A stretch of 64,000 bases of DNA. It comes from Rhizobium sp. Q54. GTDB lineage: Bacteria > Pseudomonadota > Alphaproteobacteria > Rhizobiales > Xanthobacteraceae. A model generated the notes under the pieces. It saw nothing but the letters and a program-made list of their open reading frames with translations, searched no databases and had not been told where the DNA came from. A program made the translations under genes and the position numbers. The first letter of the stretch is position 1; every line of letters starts with the position of its first letter. The stretch covers positions 1 to 64,000 of the forward strand of contig CAMDSH010000011.1 of NCBI GenBank assembly GCA_945907045.1, given 5' to 3'. Shown here in pieces: positions 12,357 through 42,642 of the stretch.

Positions 12357-12474
12357 CCCTCCCCTGCAAGGGGAGGGCCGGACCACAAAGTGGTCCGGGG
12401 TGGGGTCAACTTACTATCGCCAGCGGTGGATCGACCCCCACTCGCTCGCCACCCTCCCCCTTTCAGGGGGAGGG
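12357..12474. mobile_element. Short hairpin-flanked repeat element, copy A (no gene)
   Basis: Outer hairpins CCCTCCCCT-GCA-AGGGGAGGG (12357-12377) and CCCTCCCCCT-TTC-type-AGGGGGAGGG (12452-12474) flank a second hairpin, CCGGACCAC-AAA-GTGGTCCGG (12378-12398), and a GTGGGGTC/GACCCC pair around a short spacer containing TATCGCCAGCG. The same architecture is seen at 31662-31789 and, with a gene between the arms, at 42202-42642. It looks like a MITE. Confidence 0.7.
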
Positions 12475-31641: not shown

Positions 31642-31661
31642 ACTGGGCGCTCTTTCTTTTA

Positions 31662-31789
31662 CCTCCCCCTAGAAGGGGGAGGTCGCCCGCCGTAGCCCAT
31701 TGGGCGAAGGCGTGGCGGGTGGGGGTAAAGGTATCGCTAGCGATAGTTGAATAACCCCCACCCCAACCCTCCCCCTTTCAGGGGGAGGG
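31662..31789. mobile_element. Short hairpin-flanked repeat element, copy B (no gene)
   Basis: Left hairpin CCTCCCCCT-AGA-AGGGGGAGG (31662-31682), an inner stem around TCGCCC and GGGCGA, then a TGGGGGT/ACCCCCA pair around a spacer with the perfect palindrome TATCGCTAGCGATA (31732-31745), and right hairpin CCCTCCCCCT/AGGGGGAGGG (31767-31789). It has the same architecture as copy A at 12357 and the DUF559-carrying copy at 42202. Confidence 0.72.
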
Positions 31790-42197: not shown

Positions 42198-42587
42198 CTA
42201 TCCCTCCCCCGCTTGGGGGAGGGTGGTCGGCGTAGCCGACTGGGTGGGGGAACTCCGCTCAAGCTCGCCGTCAATCGTTTCCAACACACCCTCTAAATTT
42301 TCATCAACCTCATTATTCCAAAAGCGCAAGATTCTAAAATTCTGTCGTGAAAAAAGAGCATCGCGATTCTTATCACGCATGGCATGCAATGACATGCCGT
42401 GCTGCCCGCCGTCGATCTCGATGATCAGACGCTGCCGCAAACAGACGAAATCGAGAATGAACCCGTCTCGCGGAACCTGACGGCGAAAATGAAAACCGCG
42501 GGCGCGCCACGAACGGAGATGAACCCAAAGTTTCACCTCTTGCGGCGTCATCGACTTGCGAAGGGCACGAGCGCGTTGGTTCGCCAT
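42198..42587 (-). CDS. DUF559 endonuclease-like protein
   Basis: 129 residues from ATG 42587. The DUF559 core has LRKSMTPQEVKLWVHLR, RGFHFRRQVPRDGFILDFVC and RLIIEIDGGQH, a restriction-endonuclease-like fold related to the very-short-patch repair nuclease; the acidic DFVC/EIDGGQH residues form the presumed metal site. RFWNNEVDENLEGVLETI completes the domain. The gene starts just inside the right repeat arm and runs out through the left arm, so the C-terminal SSPTQSATPTTLPQAGEG tail is encoded by the repeat. The role is unknown; a nuclease linked to the repeat is suggested. Confidence 0.85.
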   Translation of the reverse strand: MANQRARALRKSMTPQEVKLWVHLRSWRARGFHFRRQVPRDGFILDFVCLRQRLIIEIDGGQHGMSLHAMRDKNRDALFSRQNFRILRFWNNEVDENLEGVLETIDGELERSSPTQSATPTTLPQAGEG

Positions 42588-42642
42588 CAGCAACCCCACC
42601 CAACTGGCCTTCGGCCAGCCACCCTCCCCTTTCAGGGGAGGG
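42202..42642. mobile_element. Hairpin-bounded element carrying a DUF559 nuclease gene, copy C
   Basis: The left arm has hairpins CCCTCCCCC-GCTT-GGGGGAGGG (42202-42223) and GTCGGC-GTA-GCCGAC (42226-42240), then TGGGTGGGGG. The right arm has AACCCCACCC (42592-42601), hairpin CTGGCC-TTC-GGCCAG (42604-42618) and CCCTCCCCT-TTC-AGGGGAGGG (42622-42642). The same arm order occurs at 12357 and 31662 with no gene between the arms. Mobility is inferred; no target duplication was established. Confidence 0.65.

Follow-up and report, generated by a model that had tools for sequence, protein, structure and literature searches.

A DUF559 nuclease gene between inverted BoxC-type repeats in Rhizobium sp. Q54: a probable repeat-plus-nuclease element

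Introduction

The BoxC/PIT/TM repeats were described in the 1990s and, according to a survey published in 2015, they occur in more than 260 prokaryotes (PMC4666352). The survey gives 23 copies for E. coli K-12, with the consensus CCCTCNCCC-N3-6-GGGNGAGGG-N3-GGGNGAGGG, and states that TMECO oligonucleotides form a triplex in vitro and that a stable triplex in vivo is unsupported (PMC4666352). As presented there, neither transposase nor integrase remnants were found around the E. coli copies, no mobility gene was noted near the motif, and the origin of the repeats was left open (PMC4666352). The CGTC repeats of Alphaproteobacteria are described as palindromic doublets without a dedicated transposase (PMC3733652). 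RAYTs, by contrast, were tied to REP and REPIN sequences by the position of the gene between two inverted repeats, by gene-repeat co-evolution, and by a repeat abundance that follows the gene (PMC2817692).

Among DUF559 proteins, YcjD of E. coli is counted with the known PD-(D/E)XK superfamily proteins (PMC1189080). VsrA of Caulobacter causes an SOS response in cells lacking the cytosine methyltransferase, and mismatch repair has been proposed as its role (PMC12907096). In the open-access literature on DUF559, ycjD, BoxC, REP/RAYT, intrastrand triplexes, Vsr and GIY-YIG, we found no description of an association between DUF559 and a repeat, as the original prediction for this locus had anticipated. 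Here, we analyzed a DUF559 gene and its flanks in a window of 64,000 nucleotides from Rhizobium sp. Q54 (contig CAMDSH010000011.1, positions 1 to 64,000), and compared them with DUF559 loci from the same order, from other phyla and from plasmids.

Results and Discussion

The DUF559 gene and its arms

Direct reading of the sequence bore out the prediction of a DUF559 gene placed exactly inside hairpin-bounded arms: at 42202–42642, a single minus-strand ORF, the DUF559 (PF04480) nuclease gene (42198–42587, 129 codons plus stop; ORF, Pfam and fold model), lies between two inverted arms. The left arm, read on the plus strand, consists of an outer hairpin with stems 1 and 2 of a triplex-type motif (42202–42223), an inner hairpin within the second loop (42226–42240) and a G-rich third strand, GGGTGGGGG (42242–42250). 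The right arm, on the minus strand, is the mirror image of the left arm, with the order of the parts reversed: the third strand (GGGTGGGG on the minus strand, C-rich on the plus strand; 42594–42601), the inner hairpin (42604–42618) and the outer hairpin (42622–42642). The outer hairpins were delimited by sequence reading, pattern search and folding, the inner hairpins by sequence reading and folding, and the third strands by sequence reading and the triplex-rule test given below. In general, an arm comprises a CCCTCCCC...GGGGAGGG hairpin and an inner hairpin, followed on the gene side by a G-rich strand (GGGTGGGG). Both arms fold as single-stranded DNA, with z values of −4.6 and −4.1 relative to dinucleotide shuffles.

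Gene and arm overlap, in that the DUF559 frame crosses the entire left arm, with its last codons within the arm and its stop (42200–42198) one base beyond. Six bases separate the start codon (ATG, 42587–42585) from the G-rich strand of the right arm, which lies upstream of the start and could act as a ribosome-binding site. The neighbors of the DUF559 gene are a large ORF and a gene for a GNAT-type acetyltransferase, with no methyltransferase among them. A reading of the arms as a structured RNA family was rejected, because an Rfam search of the window yielded zero matches at the gathering score.

The same repeat elsewhere in the genome

Two gene-free doublets of the same repeat, with tails facing inward, were found in the window at 12357–12474 and about 31661–31789 (sequence reading, pattern search and folding), and their parts follow the same order as in the gene-bearing unit. 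The arms had been predicted to match the ends of these copies, which proved correct for the stem, the G-rich strand and the layout, but not for the inner hairpins, whose sequences differ. The hairpin pattern CCTCCCCN{3,16}GGGGAGG occurs 62 times in the genome, versus zero for the reversed control. Besides a pair on contig C18, 19 further hairpin places of the genome were read, 15 with two hairpins and four with one, and gene-free doublets are far more numerous than gene-bearing ones in this genome. REPINs are gene-free doublets as well. The genome has four DUF559 matches: three stand-alone genes, all between such arms, and a fourth (L004), part of a 406-codon frame, with neither arms nor hairpins. 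In the window, neither the arms nor the gene-free copies end in GTAG, the letters of which occur inside two inner hairpins. The C18 hairpin pair, which spans 746 bp and encloses a dienelactone-hydrolase-like ORF (named by eye), was considered as a second type of cargo and rejected, since one of its sides is the terminus of a doublet and the other an isolated hairpin.

The arms as intrastrand-triplex repeats

The arms contain a pyrimidine strand, a purine strand and a third strand in the C-G-G register. The third strand tracks the purine strand of the stem in antiparallel orientation, with G facing G, and A or T facing A. In this register, 150 of the 223 arm readings were free of mismatches, versus 83 in the parallel register, and the third strand fitted its own stem perfectly in 68% of cases, versus 9% for a stem swapped in from another locus (n = 221). 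The stems GGGAGAAGG, GGGAGAGGG and GGGGAGGG, for instance, pair with third strands reading backwards GGGAGTAGG, GGGAGTGGG and GGGGTGGG. Because the antiparallel triplex rule is obeyed, we identify the arms, on the basis of their sequence, as members of the BoxC/PIT/TM(ECO) family of intrastrand-triplex repeats, the E. coli consensus of which corresponds to a window-type arm with a short second loop (PMC4666352).

The loops differ. Loops of 3 nt (TMECO) or of 1–6 nt characterize BoxC, and the motif search of the 2015 survey allowed 1–6 nt (PMC4666352), whereas many DUF559 arms, including those of the window, hold a hairpin in the second loop instead. Among 187 arm readings, the second loop was a linker of at most 6 nt in 70, an insert of at least 12 nt in 114 and of intermediate length in 3. 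The inserts of at least 12 nt comprise 90 distinct sequences, and 99 of the 114 close with a stem of at least four pairs, versus 19% after shuffling. The window arms belong to this long-insert loop class, a variant within the BoxC family. Across 30 orthologous Bradyrhizobium-type loci, 26 of which contributed an upstream arm to the count, the hairpin reached 98% consensus versus 54% just outside, and the third strand was kept in all 26 of these arms. As judged by eye, the inner stem changes in sequence and retains its pairing at many of these loci, pairing being less evident in the upstream arms of L144–L152.

The DUF559 protein

The window protein matched PF04480 with an E value of 3.3e-34 (117.5 bits, curated cut-off 20.6), in addition to a sub-threshold match with the Pfam family MTES_1575. 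E57, D59 and H63, which are among the residues invariant in 32 DUF559 sequences, are presumably catalytic. The predicted model (mean pLDDT 86.8) found its best solved-structure match in 3hrl, an endonuclease-like protein from N. gonorrhoeae (E 3.0e-7), followed by 3r3p, the catalytic domain of the homing endonuclease I-Bth0305I (E 4.4e-4), and, more weakly, by 1vsr (Vsr, E 5.5e-2); in a sequence-based search, 3hrl was the only match, at E 0.001. DUF559 is thus predicted to be a PD-(D/E)XK nuclease with a Vsr fold, and neither Pfam nor the predicted fold revealed a Y1/HUH tyrosine transposase domain in the window protein. The predicted fold is shared with I-Bth0305I and Vsr, and VsrA also carries DUF559 (PMC12907096). 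Differences from these systems may lie in the repeat that bounds the window gene and in its neighbors, which include no methyltransferase. The results reported for VsrA fit a DNA-breaking nuclease, and are compatible with repair and with movement alike.

Association of DUF559 with arms across genomes

DUF559 occurs in 95 of 199 genomes of the order. The best-scoring DUF559 matches listed provided 94 order loci (30 + 60 + 4 from the window's genome), 92 of them testable for arms; six matches near contig ends were left out (one each in G104, G159, G016 and G070, and two in G174). Inverted arms, called when a local alignment between the two 250-base flanks of the gene gave an arm score of 16 or more, were present at 64 of the 92 testable loci, with 28 below this score, and in 0 of 178 windows shifted by 900 bases. 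Pairs swapped between loci reached the score in 146 of 920 cases, presumably because such arms, although taken from different loci, come from a single repeat family. Local coincidence was rejected on the basis of the shifted windows and the swapped pairs. A detector of exact hairpins gave 53 two-sided, 30 one-sided and 11 hairpin-free loci among the 94, versus 0 two-sided and 4 one-sided cases in 180 shifted windows. Arms or exact hairpins were found at 90 of the 94 loci; the exceptions are L094, at a contig edge, and L004, L040 and L104, which are without arms and without hairpins.

The scan across phyla, with a seven-protein alignment and one genome per species, gave at least 575 relatives, the best 80 of which were taken, so that the loci are ranked by similarity to an arm-bearing protein rather than randomly drawn. 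The record titles name Alpha-, Beta- and Gammaproteobacteria, Desulfobacterales, Chloroflexi, Nitrospira, Omnitrophota, Rokuibacteriota, a Daviesbacteria bin and others, with misbinning possible for the odd phyla among the metagenome bins. Among the 78 testable loci of these best 80, 64 had inverted arms (63 of 77 without L269, which contains a run of N) and 14 were below the arm score, versus 1 of 145 in the control; arms or exact hairpins were found at 76 of the 78 loci of this best-80 sample. In Legionella anisa (L252), a DUF559 gene lies in inverted arms with an alignment score of 125 and without the C/G hairpin, possibly a different type of end. A plasmid collection, some entries of which are of chromosome size, yielded 44 records with DUF559. 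Of the 16 loci read by eye, 15 carried a C/G hairpin next to the gene (imperfect at L116 and L177, one-sided at several), and the P. aeruginosa locus L174 lacked one. Two Deinococcus plasmids, whose inverted arms are nearly perfect, are among these loci, as are plasmids of cyanobacteria.

Arm type, repeat load and specificity

In a tree of 93 DUF559 proteins, 78 of which could be labelled with one of three arm types (the others lack a clear type), arm type changes 16 times, versus 30.1 ± 2.4 times when shuffled within host families (0 of 2000 shuffles as low as 16), and host family changes 49 times. Arm type therefore follows the protein rather than the host. The possibility, raised with the original prediction, that the arms are unrelated to DUF559 in other genomes is contradicted by the order-wide and cross-phylum samples and by the protein tree.

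The number of repeats also follows the gene. The median number of hairpins was 41 in 77 genomes with a strong DUF559 match, 2 in 18 genomes with a weak match and 0 in 104 genomes without DUF559, the boundary between strong and weak (E below 1e-25) being our own choice. At least 10 hairpins were found in 68 of the 77 genomes with strong DUF559 versus 8 of the 104 without it, as counts uncorrected for the species tree. Within the families holding both kinds of genomes, 16 of 17 differed in the same direction (p 2.7e-4), and the observed difference in load was never reached in 2000 within-family permutations. The exceptions are the 8 DUF559-less genomes with at least 10 hairpins (up to 52), including G005, G067 and G188 with about 50 each, and 6 of the 77 strong-DUF559 genomes with fewer than 5, including G140 and G187. 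Such exceptions might reflect recent arrival, loss or a different type of arm.

GIY-YIG (PF01541) loci of the order provide a comparison. Inverted arms were present at 14 of 27 testable loci (of 30), versus 0 of 51 shifted windows, and 13 of the 14 were counted as CGTC type. When identical patterns were applied to the 64 DUF559 and the 14 GIY-YIG arm pairs, the strict BoxC hairpin was found in 43 of the former and none of the latter, the loose C/G type in all 64 and in 1, respectively, and the CGTC-like tag in 6 and in 13, a count that missed L193, which reads as CGTC type, and included L190 on a weak match. BoxC-type arms and CGTC-tagged REPs thus differ in stem, tag and partner, GIY-YIG going with the CGTC-type arms, and the DUF559 arms were rejected as CGTC REPs because their tag and stem differ. 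A GIY-YIG nuclease may, by the same kind of sequence comparison, be the partner enzyme of the CGTC REPs. GIY-YIG genes in inverted CGTC-type REPs were seen by eye in L160–L166, from the Bradyrhizobium-type genus, and through PF01541 in L183, L186, L187, L191, L193–L196, L201, L202, L206, L209 and L211.

The contents of one Bradyrhizobium-type intergenic site vary with the species: DUF559 within BoxC arms, a GIY-YIG-like gene (identified by eye) within CGTC-type arms, or CGTC pairs that enclose no gene. At another intergenic site (L301, L326–L328), beside a terminator-like hairpin, two congeners have a BoxC-type doublet and two other congeners have what reads by eye as a pair of GTAG-type palindromes, one repeat family standing in for another at this site. 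Such exchanges would be expected if intergenic hot spots gathered palindromes and small dispensable genes independently, with DUF559 as a passenger and the arms as terminators. Under that explanation, however, the strict BoxC hairpin should not be specific to one gene, as it is in the comparison with GIY-YIG, and the shifted windows (0 of 178) also argue against it; we find it hardly credible.

Presence and absence, junctions and selection

Sinorhizobium sp. K101 has a unit of about 730 bp between two genes that, in Shinella, adjoin without it, and a gene-free doublet carried by two Bradyrhizobium-type genomes is missing cleanly from four relatives, the difference amounting to about 200 bases. 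The presence/absence pattern to be checked under the original prediction is therefore seen for a whole unit and for a doublet, but not at the level of clean junctions for the unit, the K101 and Shinella sites being too diverged for this (77–82% identity). The doublet is the one clean absence among five doublet sites compared in relatives: a second is common to one relative and replaced by another palindrome in two, a third is absent in one of four relatives, and the intergenic regions of the remaining two are strongly divergent. The possibility that the gene is ancestral at its locus, with the repeats added independently, is disfavored by the co-variation of arm and protein and by the absence of the 730-bp unit in a relative.

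Judging by the spacing of their flank matches, several doublets seem to be common to related species, in which case movement would be slow or past, or infrequent at this scale. Neither a target duplication nor a fixed junction was detected among 15 doublets of one genome (mean 0.53 versus 1.02 after swapping), so the target duplication of a classical transposon, a feature to be looked for under the original prediction, did not materialize in this set.

This last result is compatible with a homing-like element, in which the nuclease would cut sites lacking the unit or the doublet and repair would copy it in, the arms guarding against self-cutting rather than serving as transposition ends. A homing-like resemblance had also been predicted, and it holds at the level of the predicted fold, I-Bth0305I being the second-ranked structure. 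Homing should nevertheless leave a conserved site, yet the flanks of the copies read differ among sites, at junctions too diverged for a closer comparison, and this genome has many more doublets without a gene than with one. We consider homing distinctly improbable.

The median dN/dS of DUF559 was 0.08 (210 pairs of 21 genes, these being the 21 of 30 orthologues with the full-length hit required), with dS near saturation for most pairs; for the closest pair, dN and dS were 0.048 and 0.529. These estimates place the DUF559 protein under purifying selection, and decayed copies exist (L170 and L132). Strong purifying selection would also be expected of an enzyme useful to the host, and DUF559 might be a structure-specific nuclease that resolves or repairs hairpins, triplexes or mismatches, with the repeats accumulating because they are tolerated and not because they are moved. 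The Vsr-like predicted fold, the SOS-linked VsrA with its proposed role in mismatch repair (PMC12907096), and the apparent age of several doublets, common to species by flank spacing, are consistent with such a function. It leaves unexplained, however, why the gene lies between matched arms, the type of which tracks the protein across host families, and why the whole unit is missing from an otherwise matching site in Shinella. We therefore regard a purely host-serving nuclease as unlikely.

The ycjD locus of E. coli

The ycjD gene of E. coli is a DUF559 gene, and with the exact pattern a BoxC copy is found on one side of it only. From its map position, we take the copy near fabI to be no. 9 of the published E. 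coli copies. The BoxC copy between ycjD and fabI (L121) has the sequence listed for copy no. 9 in Table 1 of the 2015 survey, identical in nos. 16, 19 and 22 of that table (PMC4666352). In the sapF-ycjD-fabI region (L114 and L121), a long A/T-rich palindrome with no relation to BoxC lies ahead of ycjD, and behind the gene come first a degenerate C/G hairpin and next the BoxC copy. An empty site for ycjD in E. coli was rejected, because an efflux operon occupies the position in the four strains without ycjD that were read (PMC12817139).

Conclusions

The explanation that we favor, and hold to be likely, is that the unit is a self-contained repeat-plus-nuclease element, composed of two inverted BoxC/PIT/TM repeats and a DUF559 gene, with the gene-free doublets as its non-autonomous relatives, and that it spreads in a RAYT-like manner by means of an unrelated enzyme. 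The assignment of DUF559 as the putative dedicated nuclease of the BoxC repeats is well supported, resting on association, specificity, co-variation, load and constraint, and the DUF559 family is probably their missing partner, by which these widespread repeats are spread or maintained. The flanking inverted repeats co-evolve with the gene and their number follows it, a combination of properties like that by which RAYTs were tied to REPs (PMC2817692). The prediction of a nuclease carried by its own repeat, in the manner of a REP-associated transposase, thus holds for the unit, through association and co-variation, but its mechanistic part, namely recognition, cutting and copying by DUF559, is something that we infer. 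The DUF559 protein would recognize the arm when extruded as a cruciform or when single-stranded, on the lagging strand or during repair, and would nick or cut at or beside it; host replication or repair would then place a copy of the doublet, whether or not it includes the gene, at a different intergenic location. This would be an operation of the RAYT/REP kind, by an unrelated enzyme and in the absence of target duplication.

DUF559 is not a RAYT, given its enzyme domain and the absence of the terminal GTAG tag: it is a predicted PD-(D/E)XK-type nuclease and not a Y1 HUH transposase, and its repeats are of the C/G triplex type, unlike REPs. Furthermore, RAYTs are described as fast-evolving (PMC2817692), whereas the dN/dS of DUF559 is about 0.08. 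A bolder reading, which we put forward tentatively and rate somewhat short of an even chance, is that DUF559 units form a cross-phylum class of mobile elements with a nuclease that recognizes an intrastrand DNA triplex, the first such dedicated enzyme, and that, together with GIY-YIG and the CGTC repeats, each large family of palindromic repeats has its own small nuclease. If true, a nuclease for each repeat family would explain the origin of the BoxC/PIT and CGTC repeats at once.

A dedicated nuclease would make the questions of the origin of BoxC and of the transposase of the CGTC repeats accessible to bench experiments. It would give E. coli ycjD and many other DUF559 genes a likely role, and VsrA of Caulobacter would merit a second look. 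It would also widen REP-type elements beyond those served by tyrosine transposases.
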